This document shows positions 1,008 through 11,784 of a stretch of DNA of 44,895 nucleotides, in pieces (position 1 is the first letter of the stretch; every line of letters begins with the position of its first letter). Position numbers and translations under genes: made by a program. Source of the stretch: Cytophagales bacterium (lineage in GTDB: Bacteria > Bacteroidota > Bacteroidia > Cytophagales > CCMP332); assembly GCA_028279065.1 (NCBI GenBank), contig JANQSY010000073.1:1-44895 (forward strand), given 5' to 3'. The notes beneath the pieces were generated by a model that was not told where the DNA came from, did no database searches, and saw nothing but the letters and a program-made list of their open reading frames with translations.

Positions 1008-3392
1008 CTAAGACTCACGAAAGGATTGGGCTGGGTTGACCGATATGGCTTTGAATGTCTGAAAAGAAACGGATAAGAGTGCTACCAATAACAAAAGACT
1101 TCCTGCTAATAGATAGTTTTCCCAGTTTATCGGTGCTCTGTATGCAAAAGCATCCAACCAATAGGAGGAGTAAAGCAGGGCAATTGGTATTCCTATCCCG
1201 CAGGATGCAATTACCAGGGTGAGGATTCTAAAAACCATCAACCGGAAGATCTGGACCTGGCTGGCTCCAAATATTTTTCTTAGAACCACTTCCTTGCGCT
1301 GTTTGATCAGCAGATAAAAGGAAATGCCAATCAATCCTATTGAACTTATCACCAGGCTCAGAACAGAAAAGAAACGCAAGGAGGTTTTTACTACTTCAGG
1401 GGCCATGTACTGATTAGCAAGCCTGTCTTTTTGGCTTCTATTATCCAGCGGAGAATTGGGGAAATGCTCTTTCCATTTTGCTTCTAACATTTTCGCGGTG
1501 GTGAGCTGATCTTGCGAATTTGATTTGATGGAAATCATGGAAAACCGTTCTTGTACCGGGAATACAACCAATGGCCCAACGTCTTTATAAAGGTCATCAA
1601 AATGAAAATCCTTTACGACTCCAACGACACGCACTTCAGCACGTCCGTAATTGATCTTCATGGCCAAGAGATCCTGAGGATCTGAATATCCGATTTCCGT
1701 TCCGAAGCTTTCATTCACCAACACCTGTAATTCGTTTCCTTCCGGACCACCCTGAGGGATCCTTCCGGTCAACAGAGGGATTCCATAGGCTTTCAAGAAT
1801 TCCTCATCCGCACTTAGTTCAAATGTTTTCAATTGTAGGGGACCATTTATCCCCTCGGCTTCGATCAGTATTTCATCCAAACCTCCACCTATGGAAGAAT
1901 TGCTTCGGGATACGGCGCTGATATCTGGCTCTCCAAGCAGGTCGTTTTTGAAGTTTTGAAACCCCTCGATTACTTCTGTACTTCCATTGACCTTAAATAA
2001 CTCCACTCCGTCCGCCTCAAAACCCAGATCCCGATTTTCTATAAAACTCAATTGATCCTGGACTGTACCGAGCATGATCAATAGAAAAATGGAGATGCTG
2101 AACTGAAATACCACAAGGGCATTCCTCATGAGCTGGAATTTTCTTCCCGGTTGAACAATGGTCTTTAACAGGGTTAAAGCCGAGAATTGTCTAAACCAGA
2201 TTCCCGGGATCATACCTGTTACCATGCCGATGAGAATTGCGGTGAGCACCAAGAACACCAGTGTTACTCCAATTGAAATATCCTTTATTGCAAAAGGCAG
2301 GCAGGTCTGAATAAATGGGAATAAACTCAGAATAATGATCATGGACGCAATACCTGAGAAAAGTGAAATGAAATTGGATTCAAGAATGAATTGCATGCTC
2401 ATTTGACTTGGATTTTGACCAAGTAGTCTTTTCATTCCCGCCTCTTTTTGTCTGTAGGAAAGTATTGAGAAGGTGAGATTTAGAAAATTTGAAAACGCAA
2501 GAAAAAGTATCATCAGTCCTACTATGAAATAAAGCCAAAGACGCTGAACATTTCCTTTTTTTCCTATCTCCCCATCCAAATCTGGACCCAGGTAAATGCT
2601 CTCAAATTTCTGAAGCGCATAGGAGTTTGGTGATTCCAAACCGAGAATTGAGCTTTCGTTTTCTGCGATCATGGGTAGTAGTACTTCAAGGTCAGCTGCC
2701 TCGGAGTTGAAATAATAGTAGACCCTGTCATAATCCCACTTTCGATCGTGATTCCATTCCATCATGAAGCGATCCGGAGTTTTGAATGAGCTCAGGAAAT
2801 TGAAGGTTAGATGAGAATCAATAGGAGGGTCCTGCACCACCCCGGTGACCTGGTACAACGCACCCTCATTGGTCTCATCATACTCATAAATTCTAATCTG
2901 CTTTCCCAAGGGAGATTCCTGGCCAAAATACTTTTGGACCATACTTTCAGTGAGAATGATTTTGTAAGGATCTTCCAGAGCCGTTTCTACATCTCCCTCG
3001 AGTAATCGGAAATCAAACATTTTTAAAAATGTGGGATCCACGAAATAAACATCATCCTCCACATACCTTTGGTCCCGGTAGGCCATGCTGGCATCTCTTT
3101 TTATGATCCTGGTGAACTGGTTTTCCAGAGAAGGATACTTGTCCAACAGATCCTTAATTCCGTAGGGATTTCTTGCGCTTCCTTCAGAATTGTTTGCATC
3201 TGGCTTTTGTATCAAACGATATAGTGAGTCGGAATTGCTATGAAATTGATCATGAGCATACTCAAACTGTAGATACATAAAGATCAAACCTGTGGCTATA
3301 AGAGAAAGGGTCAAGCCAAAGAGATTAACCAGGGTATAAGATCTTTTATTATGCAAAAAAGTTAGGGCAGACCTAAGTAGGGAGGGATACAT
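1008..3392 (-). CDS. FtsX/MacB-type ABC transporter permease
   Basis: This 794-residue inner-membrane protein has the duplicated MacB_PCD-FtsX architecture. TM1 is at about 20-42 and is followed by a large periplasmic domain. A first FtsX block (TMs about 285-310, 340-360, 372-400) carries 'RQKEAGMKRLLG'. A further TM at about 425-442 leads into a second periplasmic domain, and a C-terminal FtsX block (about 665-790) carries 'RKEVVLRKIFGA'. There is no prefix domain and no Walker motif. No ATP-binding subunit gene lies nearby, so its ATPase must be encoded elsewhere. Proteins of this kind usually act as mechanotransmission or efflux permeases rather than importers. It is transcribed in the same direction as the downstream padR/permease pair, about 100 bp away. 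Confidence 0.88.
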   Translation of the reverse strand: MYPSLLRSALTFLHNKRSYTLVNLFGLTLSLIATGLIFMYLQFEYAHDQFHSNSDSLYRLIQKPDANNSEGSARNPYGIKDLLDKYPSLENQFTRIIKRDASMAYRDQRYVEDDVYFVDPTFLKMFDFRLLEGDVETALEDPYKIILTESMVQKYFGQESPLGKQIRIYEYDETNEGALYQVTGVVQDPPIDSHLTFNFLSSFKTPDRFMMEWNHDRKWDYDRVYYYFNSEAADLEVLLPMIAENESSILGLESPNSYALQKFESIYLGPDLDGEIGKKGNVQRLWLYFIVGLMILFLAFSNFLNLTFSILSYRQKEAGMKRLLGQNPSQMSMQFILESNFISLFSGIASMIIILSLFPFIQTCLPFAIKDISIGVTLVFLVLTAILIGMVTGMIPGIWFRQFSALTLLKTIVQPGRKFQLMRNALVVFQFSISIFLLIMLGTVQDQLSFIENRDLGFEADGVELFKVNGSTEVIEGFQNFKNDLLGEPDISAVSRSNSSIGGGLDEILIEAEGINGPLQLKTFELSADEEFLKAYGIPLLTGRIPQGGPEGNELQVLVNESFGTEIGYSDPQDLLAMKINYGRAEVRVVGVVKDFHFDDLYKDVGPLVVFPVQERFSMISIKSNSQDQLTTAKMLEAKWKEHFPNSPLDNRSQKDRLANQYMAPEVVKTSLRFFSVLSLVISSIGLIGISFYLLIKQRKEVVLRKIFGASQVQIFRLMVFRILTLVIASCGIGIPIALLYSSYWLDAFAYRAPINWENYLLAGSLLLLVALLSVSFQTFKAISVNPAQSFRES

Positions 3393-7100: not shown

Positions 7101-8024
7101 ATGGATTCATATTCTAACACCATAATCAACGCCGTGGAGAGGGTCAAGAACTCCGTGGTGAAGATCGATACCTTTCAAAAAAGACGTGGACGTGAAATGT
7201 CGGCAGGAGGTGGAAGTGGGTTCGTCTTTTCCTCAGACGGATACCTTTTCACCAATTCCCATGTGGTCAATAACCGGAACAAGCTTGAAATTAGCCTCCT
7301 GAATGGTGAAACCGGTTCAGCAGAACTTGTGGGAGAGGACCCAGGCTCCGATATCGCCATTCTTAAGACCTATGTAGATGGTTTTGGGATCGCCACACTG
7401 GGTGATTCCTCAAATCTTCAGATCGGTGAGCTTGCTATTGCCATAGGGAATCCATTTGGCTATCAACATACGGTGTCTGCCGGGGTGATCTCTGCTCTTG
7501 GCCGTACCCTTAGAACTCCACAGGGAGCCATAGTTGACAATGTCATTCAGTCCGACGTTTCATTGAATCCGGGAAATTCCGGCGGTCCGATGATCAATGG
7601 ATCAGGACGGGTGATTGGCGTAAATACTGCAACACTGAGAGGAGCTCAGGGATTGAGTTTTTCAATAGACATAAACCTTGCAAAAGCCCTGGCAGGAGAT
7701 CTGATCAAATATGGAAAGATCCAAAGGGCGATGATCGGCATCATGGCTCATGAGATACAGTTGAATCAGCGTTTGATCAATCGGCATAGATTGGAGACCA
7801 ACAAGGGATTGCTGATCCGTGAGATCATAAAGAAAAGTCCTGCGGAAGGCGCAAAACTCCACACCGGGGATATCATTGTCCAGTTGGATGGTCAGGATGT
7901 CACCTCGATGGGAGATCTATTGAAGAGGCTGACCAGGGATCATGTCGGAAGAGCTATGAAGCTCGGGATTGTCAGGAGAGGTGAGATGAAGGATGTGGTG
8001 TTGGTTCCCACGATTAAGCAATAA
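7101..8024 (+). CDS. DegP/HtrA-type trypsin-like serine protease with one PDZ domain, no signal peptide
   Basis: This 307-residue S1C-family protease has all catalytic residues: H54 in 'TNSHVV', D84 in 'GSDIAILK' and S160 in 'NPGNSGGP'. A PDZ domain follows at about 215-300 ('GLLIREIIKKSPAEGAKLHTGDIIVQLDG'-like, quoted in part). The N-terminus 'MDSYSNTIINAVERVKNSVV' has no hydrophobic leader. The protein therefore looks cytoplasmic, unlike typical periplasmic DegP/DegQ or membrane-anchored DegS. No alternative upstream start supplying a signal peptide was seen. It could act in stress-linked protein turnover in the cytoplasm. It stands alone, divergent from the nnrE-like gene and convergent with the sigma/anti-sigma pair. 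Confidence 0.9.
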   Translation: MDSYSNTIINAVERVKNSVVKIDTFQKRRGREMSAGGGSGFVFSSDGYLFTNSHVVNNRNKLEISLLNGETGSAELVGEDPGSDIAILKTYVDGFGIATLGDSSNLQIGELAIAIGNPFGYQHTVSAGVISALGRTLRTPQGAIVDNVIQSDVSLNPGNSGGPMINGSGRVIGVNTATLRGAQGLSFSIDINLAKALAGDLIKYGKIQRAMIGIMAHEIQLNQRLINRHRLETNKGLLIREIIKKSPAEGAKLHTGDIIVQLDGQDVTSMGDLLKRLTRDHVGRAMKLGIVRRGEMKDVVLVPTIKQ

Positions 8025-8029
8025 TTGGA

Positions 8030-8353
8030 TTAATGATTAAGAATTTTTCCTTTTTTGATCAGAATATGTTCCAGGATCTGGAATAGGATCAATAGGGCTC
8101 CGAGCCCTGCAAGATGGGGAAGCCAAGGCAGAATAATTGAATTATTGACCCCGACGATCAAAAGGGCAACTATTCCGACTGAAACGGCCAAAAGGGACAG
8201 TGCCCATTGAAGGATGAGGCTTTTCCAAATCCGGGTTTGTTTTCTTTTGTTGATCTTTTCCTTGATCACCGAATTGAAATCCTGGCTTAATTCGGTTTTG
8301 GCATTTTCCTCCAGGGCCGTTTTCAGTATGTGATCTAATTGTTCTTCTTTCAT
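8030..8353 (-). CDS. Putative anti-sigma factor, small two-TM membrane protein
   Basis: This 107-residue protein has a charged cytosolic N-terminal part (1-45) and two hydrophobic segments (about 47-67 and 74-94), ending in a short basic tail. Its ATG overlaps the sigma gene stop by 4 bp (ATGA), so translation is coupled. Position and topology suggest that it holds the sigma factor at the membrane. No zinc-binding HxxxCxxC anti-sigma motif is visible, so the function is inferred from context only. Confidence 0.6.
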   Translation of the reverse strand: MKEEQLDHILKTALEENAKTELSQDFNSVIKEKINKRKQTRIWKSLILQWALSLLAVSVGIVALLIVGVNNSIILPWLPHLAGLGALLILFQILEHILIKKGKILNH

Positions 8354-8901
8354 AGTATTCCAGTTTCTCTTTCCAGGAATGGCGCCATCATGGCTTCCAA
8401 TTTCTTTTTTGCTCTGAAAAGGTAATTTTTTACCGTACCATCTGGTAGTCCGGTTACATCCATGATCTCTTTATAGCTCATTTCCTCCAGGTAATATAAA
8501 CTCAGGATGGTCTGATATGGATGAGGCAATTTATTGACCATTTGCCTCACAAATCTTGCGTTATCTTTTTTTTCAGTAGAAAGATCTTCATGACCTAATA
8601 TGGCATCCAGCTCCCGGAGATCATCAGTGGCTCGTGGCATCTTTTTTCTTTTTAGATAATTCAGTCCGGTTCTATATGCAATCTGCCCTATCCATGTACT
8701 CAACTTGGAATCGAACTTGAACCTCTCAAGGTTTTTATGAACCTTAAGAAATACATCTTGGATGATCTCTTCACGATCTTCAGTGTTTGGCACCATAGGT
8801 GCGATCATATGAATAACCAAGCCAAGATGCTGATTAAGGAGGAGTTCAAAAGCTCCCGGGTTACCCCGTAAAACCGATTTAACGAGCTGTTTTTCCTCCA
8901 T
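8350..8901 (-). CDS. ECF-family RNA polymerase sigma factor
   Basis: The 183-residue protein contains sigma region 2 (about 15-85, with 'DREEIIQDVFLKVHKNLERF' and 'STWIGQIAYRTGLNYLKR') and region 4 (about 118-172, with 'YLEEMSYKEIMDVTGLPDGTVKNYLFRAKKKL'-like helix-turn-helix, abridged). Regions 1 and 3 are absent, as expected for the ECF class. It is followed by a coupled small membrane protein. Upstream is a promoter-like sequence identical to one facing the opposite operon, which argues for autoregulation and control of the DUF6249-permease genes. With that promoter the transcript would be almost leaderless, since the -10 ends 9 nt before the ATG. Confidence 0.93.
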   Translation of the reverse strand: MEEKQLVKSVLRGNPGAFELLLNQHLGLVIHMIAPMVPNTEDREEIIQDVFLKVHKNLERFKFDSKLSTWIGQIAYRTGLNYLKRKKMPRATDDLRELDAILGHEDLSTEKKDNARFVRQMVNKLPHPYQTILSLYYLEEMSYKEIMDVTGLPDGTVKNYLFRAKKKLEAMMAPFLERETGIL

Positions 8902-8910
8902 TCAACAGGA

Positions 8911-8940
8911 TTAGACAGTAGTCCAAGACAGAATGTTGCA
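8911..8940 (-). promoter_or_regulatory. Predicted ECF-type promoter of the sigma factor gene
   Basis: Read on the minus strand, TGCAACATTCT (8940-8930) is followed by TGTCTAA (8917-8911). The spacer is 17 bp between GCAACA and GTCTAA. The AAC-containing -35 and GTC-type -10 fit the general pattern of ECF promoters. The same pair at the same spacing faces the other way at 8970-8999, and both arms are centred on 8955. Confidence 0.65.
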
Positions 8941-8969
8941 ATCTATGGAAAAAAATTTTCGAGCATTCC

Positions 8970-8999
8970 TGCAACATTCTTCCCGGGCCCTCTGTCTAA
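8970..8999 (+). promoter_or_regulatory. Predicted ECF-type promoter of the DUF6249-permease operon
   Basis: TGCAACATTCT (8970-8980) and TGTCTAA (8993-8999) are separated by the same 17-bp spacer as the copy upstream of the sigma gene. Transcription would start near 9006. That supports translation from the ATG at 9023 rather than any upstream in-frame start. Confidence 0.65.
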
Positions 9000-9022: not shown

Positions 9023-9376
9023 ATGAATGAAACACTAGCAGATCTGTTAAGTCCGGTTGCAGTCATGGGTACTTTTACCATTCTTCTGGTATTATTTACC
9101 CGAACCCTCACCGACTATTTCTTAAAAAAGAGGATGGTTCAAAGTGGTTTAAACCCTGAGGAAATGAAAACCCTCTTGAAAGAAAGAGAGCAGGGAAAAT
9201 ATACCGCCTTAAAATGGGGATTGATCGTCTTTTTTGGCGGGCTGGGCTTGTTGATCATTTCTTTTGTTCCTTATGAACCTAGCTCTCCTTTTCCTTTTGG
9301 GATCCTTGCCATATTCCTTTCAGCTGGATTCTTGGTGTACTACTTCATGGTTAAAAAGGACAACCCTCCTTCATGA
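9023..9376 (+). CDS. DUF6249-like two-TM membrane protein
   Basis: The product is 117 residues from the ATG at 9023. The frame is open up to 8933, but those codons overlap the predicted promoter. Hydrophobic segments lie at about 10-29, 57-76 and 86-107. A basic/amphipathic linker 'LKKRMVQSGLNPEEMKTLLK' between them matches the style of DUF6249 proteins, in which a membrane helix is followed by 'R..li..G..pe'. The stop overlaps the permease ATG by 4 bp, so the two are coupled. It may be an accessory or regulatory partner of the permease; this is inference from the overlap. Confidence 0.65.
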   Translation: MNETLADLLSPVAVMGTFTILLVLFTRTLTDYFLKKRMVQSGLNPEEMKTLLKEREQGKYTALKWGLIVFFGGLGLLIISFVPYEPSSPFPFGILAIFLSAGFLVYYFMVKKDNPPS

Positions 9377-11784
9377 TCCGGAATTACCTGCTTATCGCCT
9401 CCAGGGCCTTTTGGAAAAACAAGGGCTTTACGGCTATCAACCTGGTCGGATTGGCAGTTGGAATGTCGGTTTGCTTTATGGTCATCCTATTGGTGTATGA
9501 TCAGGTGAATTATGATGAGTTCCATGCCAATAAGGATAGGGTGTACAGAGTACTAAGTCTTAAAAAGGGAGAATCAGCCTTCTTTGATGCACGGGCTACC
9601 ACCACTCCGATGTTTAAGGAGCATATAATGGATAGGGAGACCGGAATAGAAAGTATGACTCTGATGAGCAGGTATTTTAGAGGAGAAGTCCGTTCCGATG
9701 AAAAGGTGATGGAGTTTCGGGGGTTCTACACAGATCCTGAGTTTTTTGATGTTTTTGGGTTTCAATTGGAGGGAAATTCAGCTCAGAAAGCATTAGGAGA
9801 TCCTTTTGGAGTTGTATTAAGTGAGGAGTTTGCAAAGAAGCTCTTTCCGAATTCCGATGCTATTGATAGAGTAATAGAGATCAATGAGGATGAGGAATAC
9901 ATAGTAAGGGGAATTGTAAAGAAGTCAGAAGGCAAAAGCCATATCAAATTCGATATGTTGGCTTCCTATTCAAGCGTTCATTCTTTGATACAAAAAGAAA
10001 CCCTTGGTAAGAGGGCGCACCAATGGGAGAACGTATCCATGACTCATTGCTATATGGTATTAAATGAAAGCATGGATCCGCAATACATCGAAGGTCAATT
10101 AAATCATCTTGCCCAGGAGAATATGGATCTTCCGGATGACAACCCCGGATACGAATTTGAGCTTCAACACCTTAATGATATTACTCCGGGAAGGGTGATG
10201 GCTAACGAGGTGAGTTTTACATTGCCATTGATCTTTCTTGCATTCTTCCTATTTCTGGGCGTAATAGTAATTCTTACAGCAACCATCAACTATTCAAATC
10301 TTGCAATTGCCCAGGCTTTGAACAGAATAAAGGAAGTAGGTATACGCAAGGTAAACGGGGCTTCCAGGGCTTCCATCATATTGCAATTCCTTGTTGAGGC
10401 CATGCTGATCAATTTAGGAGCTATGATCCTGGCAATGATCTTCTATAGGCTTATGATCGGGCAGTTCAATGGATTGTGGCTGTTCAACCTTGTGGATCTC
10501 AATATTGAAGATAACGGTTGGGCCTACCTTTATTTCTTTCTTTTTAGTCTTGGATTGGGGCTGATCACAGGCGTTGGTCCGGCTCTCTATGTAAGTCGGT
10601 TTGATCCCAGCCTTTCTCTTAAGCCAGGTTTTAGTCCCAGGTCTGGCAAAGGAAGAAGGTGGTATTCTTTTTCTGGAAAGAAACTCATGATCGGGGTGCA
10701 ATTTTTTCTTGCATTGATCCTGATCATCAGTATAACGCTTGTAACCGACCAGACCAACAAATTGGTGAATTCAAAATACGGGTTTGATGAAGAAAATATT
10801 TTTTTCATCGAGCTACAGGGACATGATCCTGAGATCTTGCGTACTGAATTTTCCAAACAAAGCACGGTGCTTTCTACAGCCCTTGCTTCCCATCACACAG
10901 CAGTAGGCAGAACCATGGGTACCAAATTGAAAAGAGCTCAAAACGATGAAAAAGTGGAGTTCAATTACTTTTCAGTCGATGACCAATACCTTGATCTCTT
11001 AGGCCTTAAGCTTTTGGCAGGTCAAAAGTTTGGCACCAAGGGCTCAACAGCCGAGAAAACCTCAGTTCTTATCAATGAAGTTGGTGCGGAAAAGCTGGGC
11101 TATGAAGACCTGGATGACTGTATTGGTGAAATTGTTTATCAGAATGATACCACTCAATTAAAGATCATGGGAGTGATCAGAGATTATAATTATGAGATAT
11201 TGATGCGTGATATATACCCAATGATGTTGTTATGGGATCCGGAAGAGATAGAGTACTTATATCTGAAACTTAATGATGTTGAGGTTGGAAAGACGAGGGA
11301 GGAGTTTGAGGAGATATGGGAGTCACTTGACCCCAGGAGGGAATTCAAGGCTGGGTTTTTGGATGAAGAGATGGATCAGTTTTATGCAGTTTTTGGGGAT
11401 CTGATAAAGATTTTAACATTGATCGCCACTCTTGCAATAGTGATAACATGCTTAGGATTGATTGGAATGGTTGATTTCGCAACCAGGGTAAGGATCAAAG
11501 AGGTGGGCGTGAGGAAGGTCCTGGGAGCGGAAAATAGAAATTTGATATGGATACTATCAAGAGAATTTTTAGTACTCATTTTGATCACCATAGTTCTTGC
11601 GACTCCACTTGCATTATTCCTGAATTCACTATGGCTGAATACCATGGCCAATCATATCGATTTTAATGCATGGAATACGTTACCTGGGATTTTCCTGATC
11701 CTTCTGATCAGCATGTCCGTGATCTTTTATAAGACGGTTTCGGCTTCGAGATCAAATCCGGTGGTGTTGCTTCGTAACGAATAG
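9373..11784 (+). CDS. FtsX/MacB-type ABC transporter permease (ECF-linked)
   Basis: This 803-residue permease has two FtsX units. TM1 is at about 20-40, then a periplasmic MacB-like domain. FtsX block 1 carries 'RIKEVGIRKVNGA' (about 318-330), a TM at about 443-460 leads to a second periplasmic domain, and FtsX block 2 carries 'RIKEVGVRKVLGA' (about 710-722) with final TMs to residue 795. There is no ATPase domain and no ATPase gene in the window. It is translationally coupled to the DUF6249-like gene and lies under a predicted ECF promoter, so it is probably part of an envelope-stress or efflux response. It is convergent with the T9SS gene, with a 2-bp gap. Confidence 0.9.
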   Translation: MIRNYLLIASRAFWKNKGFTAINLVGLAVGMSVCFMVILLVYDQVNYDEFHANKDRVYRVLSLKKGESAFFDARATTTPMFKEHIMDRETGIESMTLMSRYFRGEVRSDEKVMEFRGFYTDPEFFDVFGFQLEGNSAQKALGDPFGVVLSEEFAKKLFPNSDAIDRVIEINEDEEYIVRGIVKKSEGKSHIKFDMLASYSSVHSLIQKETLGKRAHQWENVSMTHCYMVLNESMDPQYIEGQLNHLAQENMDLPDDNPGYEFELQHLNDITPGRVMANEVSFTLPLIFLAFFLFLGVIVILTATINYSNLAIAQALNRIKEVGIRKVNGASRASIILQFLVEAMLINLGAMILAMIFYRLMIGQFNGLWLFNLVDLNIEDNGWAYLYFFLFSLGLGLITGVGPALYVSRFDPSLSLKPGFSPRSGKGRRWYSFSGKKLMIGVQFFLALILIISITLVTDQTNKLVNSKYGFDEENIFFIELQGHDPEILRTEFSKQSTVLSTALASHHTAVGRTMGTKLKRAQNDEKVEFNYFSVDDQYLDLLGLKLLAGQKFGTKGSTAEKTSVLINEVGAEKLGYEDLDDCIGEIVYQNDTTQLKIMGVIRDYNYEILMRDIYPMMLLWDPEEIEYLYLKLNDVEVGKTREEFEEIWESLDPRREFKAGFLDEEMDQFYAVFGDLIKILTLIATLAIVITCLGLIGMVDFATRVRIKEVGVRKVLGAENRNLIWILSREFLVLILITIVLATPLALFLNSLWLNTMANHIDFNAWNTLPGIFLILLISMSVIFYKTVSASRSNPVVLLRNE

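Follow-up and report, generated by a model that had tools for sequence, protein, structure and literature searches.

The back-to-back elements centred on position 8955 of the window (the whole stretch of 44,895 nucleotides that was analysed) are very probably two copies of one ECF promoter, each of the form GCAAC-N18-GTCTAA, one directed toward an ECF sigma factor gene and the other toward the DUF6249-FtsX genes. On the basis of related loci, we are confident that these are divergent promoters of one kind, and that both would be read by the adjacent ECF sigma factor.

Promoters and genes of the locus

Two pairs of perfect reverse complements, TTAGACAG (8911–8918) with CTGTCTAA (8992–8999) and AGAATGTTGCA (8930–8940) with TGCAACATTCT (8970–8980), share the centre 8955, and both the coordinates and the complementarity given for them in an earlier note on this DNA are exact. 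Counted over runs of at least 7 bp, this centre-sharing symmetry amounts to 19 bp and is the highest in the window, with 14 bp for the next best centre and at most 16 bp in six Markov surrogates of the same length. Read outward from 8955, either side gives TGCAACATTCT followed by TGTCTAA. The 17-bp spacer previously assigned to the promoters is correct when measured from TGCAACA to GTCTAA and incorrect for TGCAACATTCT to TGTCTAA, which is 12 bp; from GCAAC to GTC the spacer is 18 nt in both promoters. The features of the locus are as follows.

8030–8353, minus strand: probable anti-sigma gene, 107 aa, two TM segments, 4-bp overlap with the sigma stop
8350–8901, minus strand: ECF sigma factor gene, 183 aa, Sigma70_r2 and Sigma70_r4_2
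Residue N159 of the ECF sigma factor (8350–8901): located in the region 4.2 recognition helix
8911–8916, minus strand: −10 box GTCTAA of the sigma-facing promoter, 9 nt before the ATG at 8901
8935–8940, minus strand: −35 box TGCAAC of the sigma-facing promoter (extended box TGCAACATTCT, 8930–8940)
8941–8969, no strand: gap of 29 bp between the −35 boxes, A/T tract (GGAAAAAAATTTTCG)
8970–8975, plus strand: −35 box TGCAAC of the DUF6249-facing promoter (extended box 8970–8980)
8994–8999, plus strand: −10 box GTCTAA of the DUF6249-facing promoter, 23 nt before the ATG at 9023
9023–9376, plus strand: DUF6249 membrane protein gene, 117 aa, three TM segments, PF19762 (2.5e-13)
9373–11784, plus strand: MacB_PCD/FtsX-type duplicated ABC permease gene, 803 aa, 4-bp overlap with DUF6249

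The sigma factor has the composition by which ECF sigma factors are recognised (regions 2 and 4 only, about 180 aa), with PF04542, PF08281 and TIGR02937 scoring over cut-off. The PF19762 match of the DUF6249 protein reached 50.3 bits against a curated cut-off of 33, and both MacB_PCD and FtsX domains of the permease were over cut-off; no ATPase gene was seen beside the permease in the surrounding ORF list. The DUF6249 gene most likely starts at the ATG at 9023 rather than at 8933, where the mechanically called ORF begins, because a relative from the same genus begins at the former position and 8933 lies inside the promoters. In this nearest relative (L114) the sigma factor is 67% identical, the genes stand in the same order as in the window (HtrA-like protease, anti-sigma, sigma, DUF6249, FtsX), and both promoters are kept.

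The A/T tract at 8941–8969 is possibly a shared UP-like element. Similar tracts occur upstream of many, though not all, of the −35 boxes in relatives. The HtrA-like serine protease with a PDZ domain (7101–8024), a neighbour kept in L114, is convergent with the anti-sigma gene and has no evident signal peptide; a link to anti-sigma turnover is possible.

Conservation within the order

A protein search of 390 genomes of the order gave sigma relatives in 37. The DUF6249 gene is divergent from sigma in 19 loci and lies downstream of it on the same strand in 11, or 12 with L139, which was counted as co-directional as the promoter scan finds a second site there and a DUF6249-like ORF follows. The sequence GCAAC-N17/18-GTC (GAC in one case) precedes 30 of the 31 sigma orthologues of the order, and this retention of the sigma-facing promoter supports the autoregulation that had been predicted for the window.

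A promoter matrix, trained on the sigma-facing sites alone, was then scanned toward DUF6249, and it detected a DUF6249-facing promoter in every divergent locus (19/19, 14–31 bits), equalled by none of 200 shuffles in 17 loci and by at most 2 of 200 in the other two. The 12 co-directional loci have no divergent copy, save for a weak match of 9.6 bits in L138; directly upstream of DUF6249 all 12 carry the gene's own promoter copy (15–30 bits, above the best shuffle). The spacer is 18 nt in the divergent clade, with the exceptions of L119 (17 on both sides) and L121 (18 and 19), and 17 nt in the co-directional clade. In L123, the −10 sequence is GACTAC in both promoters.

Phylum-wide pairing of DUF6249 and sigma genes

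PF19762 is present in 124 of 395 Bacteroidota genomes, and an ECF sigma gene was located within 2.5 kb of DUF6249 in 66 of 70 loci, 56 of them divergent; L222, an artefact, was left out of the 66. The DUF6249 loci L205, L206 and L223 have no ECF sigma gene in the stretch retrieved. Outside the window's order, the −35 sequence is mostly GTAAC or GAAAC. Twin promoters of the strict pattern were found in 49 of the 56 divergent phylum loci, as against about 6% per strand when the regions were shuffled. Of the 52 loci in a second set, 33 are divergent and 28 of these have both copies. By the strict pattern, a site is missing on one or both sides in 7/56 and 5/33 divergent loci, respectively. Reading these failures by eye, L251, L248 and L232 also carry both copies, and L199, L216 and L250 have an altered −10 that is alike on both sides. 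In six loci (L182, L183, L192, L195, L255 and L256) DUF6249 is the first gene of an operon that includes sigma, and the one promoter lies ahead of DUF6249.

Retention of both boxes in related genomes had been named in the earlier note as a point on which the reading depended; with about 150 Bacteroidota loci compared, both promoters are kept. They also vary together. The second base of the −35 (C, T or A) is common to both promoters of a locus in 76 of 77 pairs, i.e. 48/49 in the first set (permutation mean 29, maximum 40) and 28/28 in the second, and the spacer length is equal in 69 of the 77 (permutation mean 50, maximum 63). Genomes G594 and G640 have two modules each, one GTAAC/GTAAC (L184, L186) and one GCAAC/GCAAC (L297, L296), and since both module types are internally matched within one genome, genome-wide composition is not the cause of the agreement. 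Promoters so conserved and covarying support the view that the sigma factor has a defined recognition sequence, as had been proposed.

Sigma residue 159 and the −35 base

In the sigma alignment, the column of window residue 159 was the most informative for the second −35 base, followed by residue 160. Residue 159 lies within the GTVKN of the region 4.2 recognition helix, and its identity corresponds to the promoter base as N/S to C, V/I to T, and T/A to A. By our reading of the GTVRS/GTVKN motif, it aligns with S172 of SigE and T171 of SigW, which in crystal structures bond base −34, the second base of the −35 (PMC6713349). The threonine of SigW is paired with GAAAC, matching the combination of T/A159 and GAAAC in these sigma factors. 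The rule is broken in 6 of 127 rows, one of which (L273) is from a locus with a failed DUF6249 call.

On a sigma tree built without the recognition region, the second −35 base changed at least 8 times. Both promoters of L251, a long-branched member of the GCAAC clade (99 for the set enclosing it), read GTAAC, and its sigma factor has V159. Significance was out of reach for tree-aware pair tests of residue 159, with at most 7 independent pairs; as the independent changes are too few, the link rests on the ranking and the known contact. The combined pattern indicates that the promoters and the part of sigma predicted to read them changed together. The code from residue 159 to the second −35 base is testable, and natural paralogue pairs are available within single genomes.

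This correspondence also bears on the possibility that the promoters are of ECF type and are read by other ECF sigma factors of the cell as well or instead. The genome has further sigma candidates (17 first-look candidates listed), and overlapping use of ECF promoters has been discussed for Flavobacterium psychrophilum (PMC9723704). Against this, the promoter variant tracks residue 159 of the local sigma factor, even in genomes with two differing modules, which leaves recognition by other sigma factors improbable.

Spacing and orientation of the paired promoters

In divergent relatives, the two −35 boxes stand as little as 12 bp and as much as 234 bp apart. As gap and orientation both vary, the selected unit is the single promoter before each gene and not the palindrome, and the shared two-fold axis pointed out in the earlier note carries no separate function. 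The same variation decides against an operator, in which a dimeric regulator on the symmetric arms would control both genes. The two arm pairs in perfect two-fold symmetry favour such a site; however, 12 loci have both copies in the same orientation, one before each gene, and the constant distance is that from −35 to −10 within each copy. The shared-axis operator was rejected and is judged very unlikely. The least credible reading, a hairpin (attenuator, terminator or cruciform) formed in DNA or RNA by the inverted repeat, was likewise rejected on the varying gap and orientation of the arms, for although the region folds as single-stranded DNA at z = −4.8, this fold follows automatically from the symmetry, no terminator-like site was found between 8900 and 9020, and the predicted transcripts begin outside the repeat.

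The probable anti-sigma gene

Directly after sigma, a TM-containing ORF is present in 31/31 loci of the order and in 61/61 phylum loci with room for one. The motif HxxxCxxC was found in 12/12 proteins of the co-directional clade and in 0/19 of the window's clade, and hhalign shows the two groups to be homologous (98%, 2e-13, TM part included). Class I (ASDI) anti-sigma factors combine an N-terminal cytoplasmic anti-sigma domain, in many cases bearing HxxxCxxC, with one or more TM segments after it. No Pfam family scored over cut-off for the 107-aa protein (8030–8353). Given its homology to the HxxxCxxC set and the absence of the motif, it is most plausibly a relative of class I anti-sigma factors that has become shorter and has no zinc motif, and we infer that it would inhibit sigma from its position, its coupling and the homology to the zinc-motif family. 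The earlier description of the system left out this gene. A homology of the anti-sigma TM hairpin to DUF6249 (Pfam E 0.015) found no support in profile comparison, which gives a probability of 2–3%.

Position of the sigma start codon

Of 28 order loci, 26 have the sigma ATG 5–9 nt past the −10; a distance of 11 nt or less is seen in 38 of 50 phylum loci. The DUF6249 start follows its −10 at a median of 40 nt (at most 11 nt in 2/48). Transcripts usually start 5–8 nt from the −10, so with such short distances the sigma mRNA is expected to start at, or a few nucleotides before, the AUG and should be leaderless. The near-leaderless sigma transcript suggested previously thus gains support from the −10-to-ATG distances of relatives, which refer to predicted starts. 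In L117, where the sigma start stands at 32 nt, the frame beginning with an ATG 8 nt past the −10 has only five codons (MPGPY) and stops short of that start; it possibly encodes a leaderless leader peptide.

Leaderless mRNAs make up 5.5% in F. psychrophilum (PMC9723704), and 5′ UTRs under 10 nt 3.7% in Bacteroides thetaiotaomicron (PMC7366714). A conserved leaderless sigma mRNA is predicted here in a phylum in which such mRNAs amount to a few percent.

Proposed mechanism and comparison with known systems

In the proposed mechanism, the two-TM anti-sigma encoded directly after sigma would hold the sigma factor. An envelope signal would lead to its release, and RNA polymerase with sigma would start from both promoters. 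The sigma-facing promoter would yield more sigma and anti-sigma from an mRNA beginning at, or a few bases from, the sigma AUG, and the other promoter would yield the DUF6249 membrane protein together with the FtsX-type permease, whose gene overlaps that of DUF6249 in this lineage. DUF6249 is the conserved partner of this sigma lineage across Bacteroidota and has a promoter copy to itself in each arrangement, be it divergent from sigma, downstream of it or at the head of an operon with it. The symmetry axis simply reflects that the spacers of the two copies are equal.

Autoregulated ECF promoters are already known. SigE of Escherichia coli and SigW of Bacillus subtilis likewise use an AAC-containing −35 and a GTC-containing −10 (PMC6713349), and in both systems sigma promotes its own operon and a TM anti-sigma gene lies directly downstream. 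Unlike in these, a second matched promoter is here tied to the DUF6249 partner, the sigma mRNA is predicted to be leaderless, and the anti-sigma is short, its zinc motif lost in the window's clade. The SM6 promoters of F. psychrophilum are likewise of Bacteroidota ECF type, their −10 region containing a CGT box, and one precedes an ECF sigma/anti-sigma pair, as here; unlike at the window locus, a link to type IX secretion exists for several of the SM6 genes (PMC9723704).

In the same phylum, EcfO/Reo and CirY/CirZ of Bacteroidales are sigma/anti-sigma pairs which, according to the available parts of their accounts, are themselves strongly induced under envelope stress or colitis (PMC9308784, PMC13114119). 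The same parts describe Reo, the anti-sigma of EcfO, as very large and spanning to the outer membrane, unlike the short protein of the window, and CirYZ as co-transcribed with a Spy-like chaperone; no mention of a DUF6249 partner was found in them (PMC9308784, PMC13114119). The literature searched gave no connection of DUF6249 with a sigma factor, nor did it yield an account of the phylum-wide DUF6249 pairing, the covarying twin promoters or the conserved leaderless arrangement, though earlier notice is possible. The widespread PF19762 family gains a functional context as the conserved neighbour of one lineage of ECF sigma factors and as its conserved, predicted direct target.

Predicted regulon and targets

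Exact matches to TGCAAC-N17-19-GTCTAA in the 3.59 Mb of the own genome comprised the twin promoters and one further site (G000 contig C83:8113–8142, L001), located about 40–75 nt upstream of a gene for a carboxypeptidase-regulatory-domain type protein. By chance, about one such site would be expected, and the C83 site had no counterpart among the matches in G028 of the same genus. A large motif-defined regulon was not seen in the own genome, the consensus having this one further site. Over 31 sigma-bearing genomes, the consensus gave 35 matches against 3 with the reversed control; by our count 26 of these were at the sigma/DUF6249 locus, and 9, including C83, were off-locus, against the 3 of the control. 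No recurrent gene family was seen downstream of the six off-locus sites examined.

With so few off-locus sites, the core regulon looks very small, comprising sigma, anti-sigma, DUF6249 and, in loci that have them, the genes after DUF6249. More tentatively, and with considerable doubt, sigma, anti-sigma and DUF6249 may constitute one Bacteroidota stress module that is itself the core regulon, with an obligatorily leaderless sigma mRNA and with DUF6249 feeding back on the anti-sigma or the signal. If true, the obligatorily leaderless mRNA would permit sigma synthesis when normal initiation fails.

The direct control of an FtsX permease, also proposed earlier, is favoured by the 4-bp DUF6249/FtsX overlap. 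In the order set, however, FtsX follows DUF6249 only in the window, L114, L117, L121, L122, L126, L127 and L129, and the conserved target is DUF6249; FtsX control in this locus is plausible as a lineage-specific trait. One off-locus consensus match, L175 (G389 C7:12464), lies 67 nt upstream of another FtsX-type permease gene. The window itself contains a second FtsX-type permease gene (1008–3392, minus strand), related to that at 9373–11784 (phmmer 4e-61).
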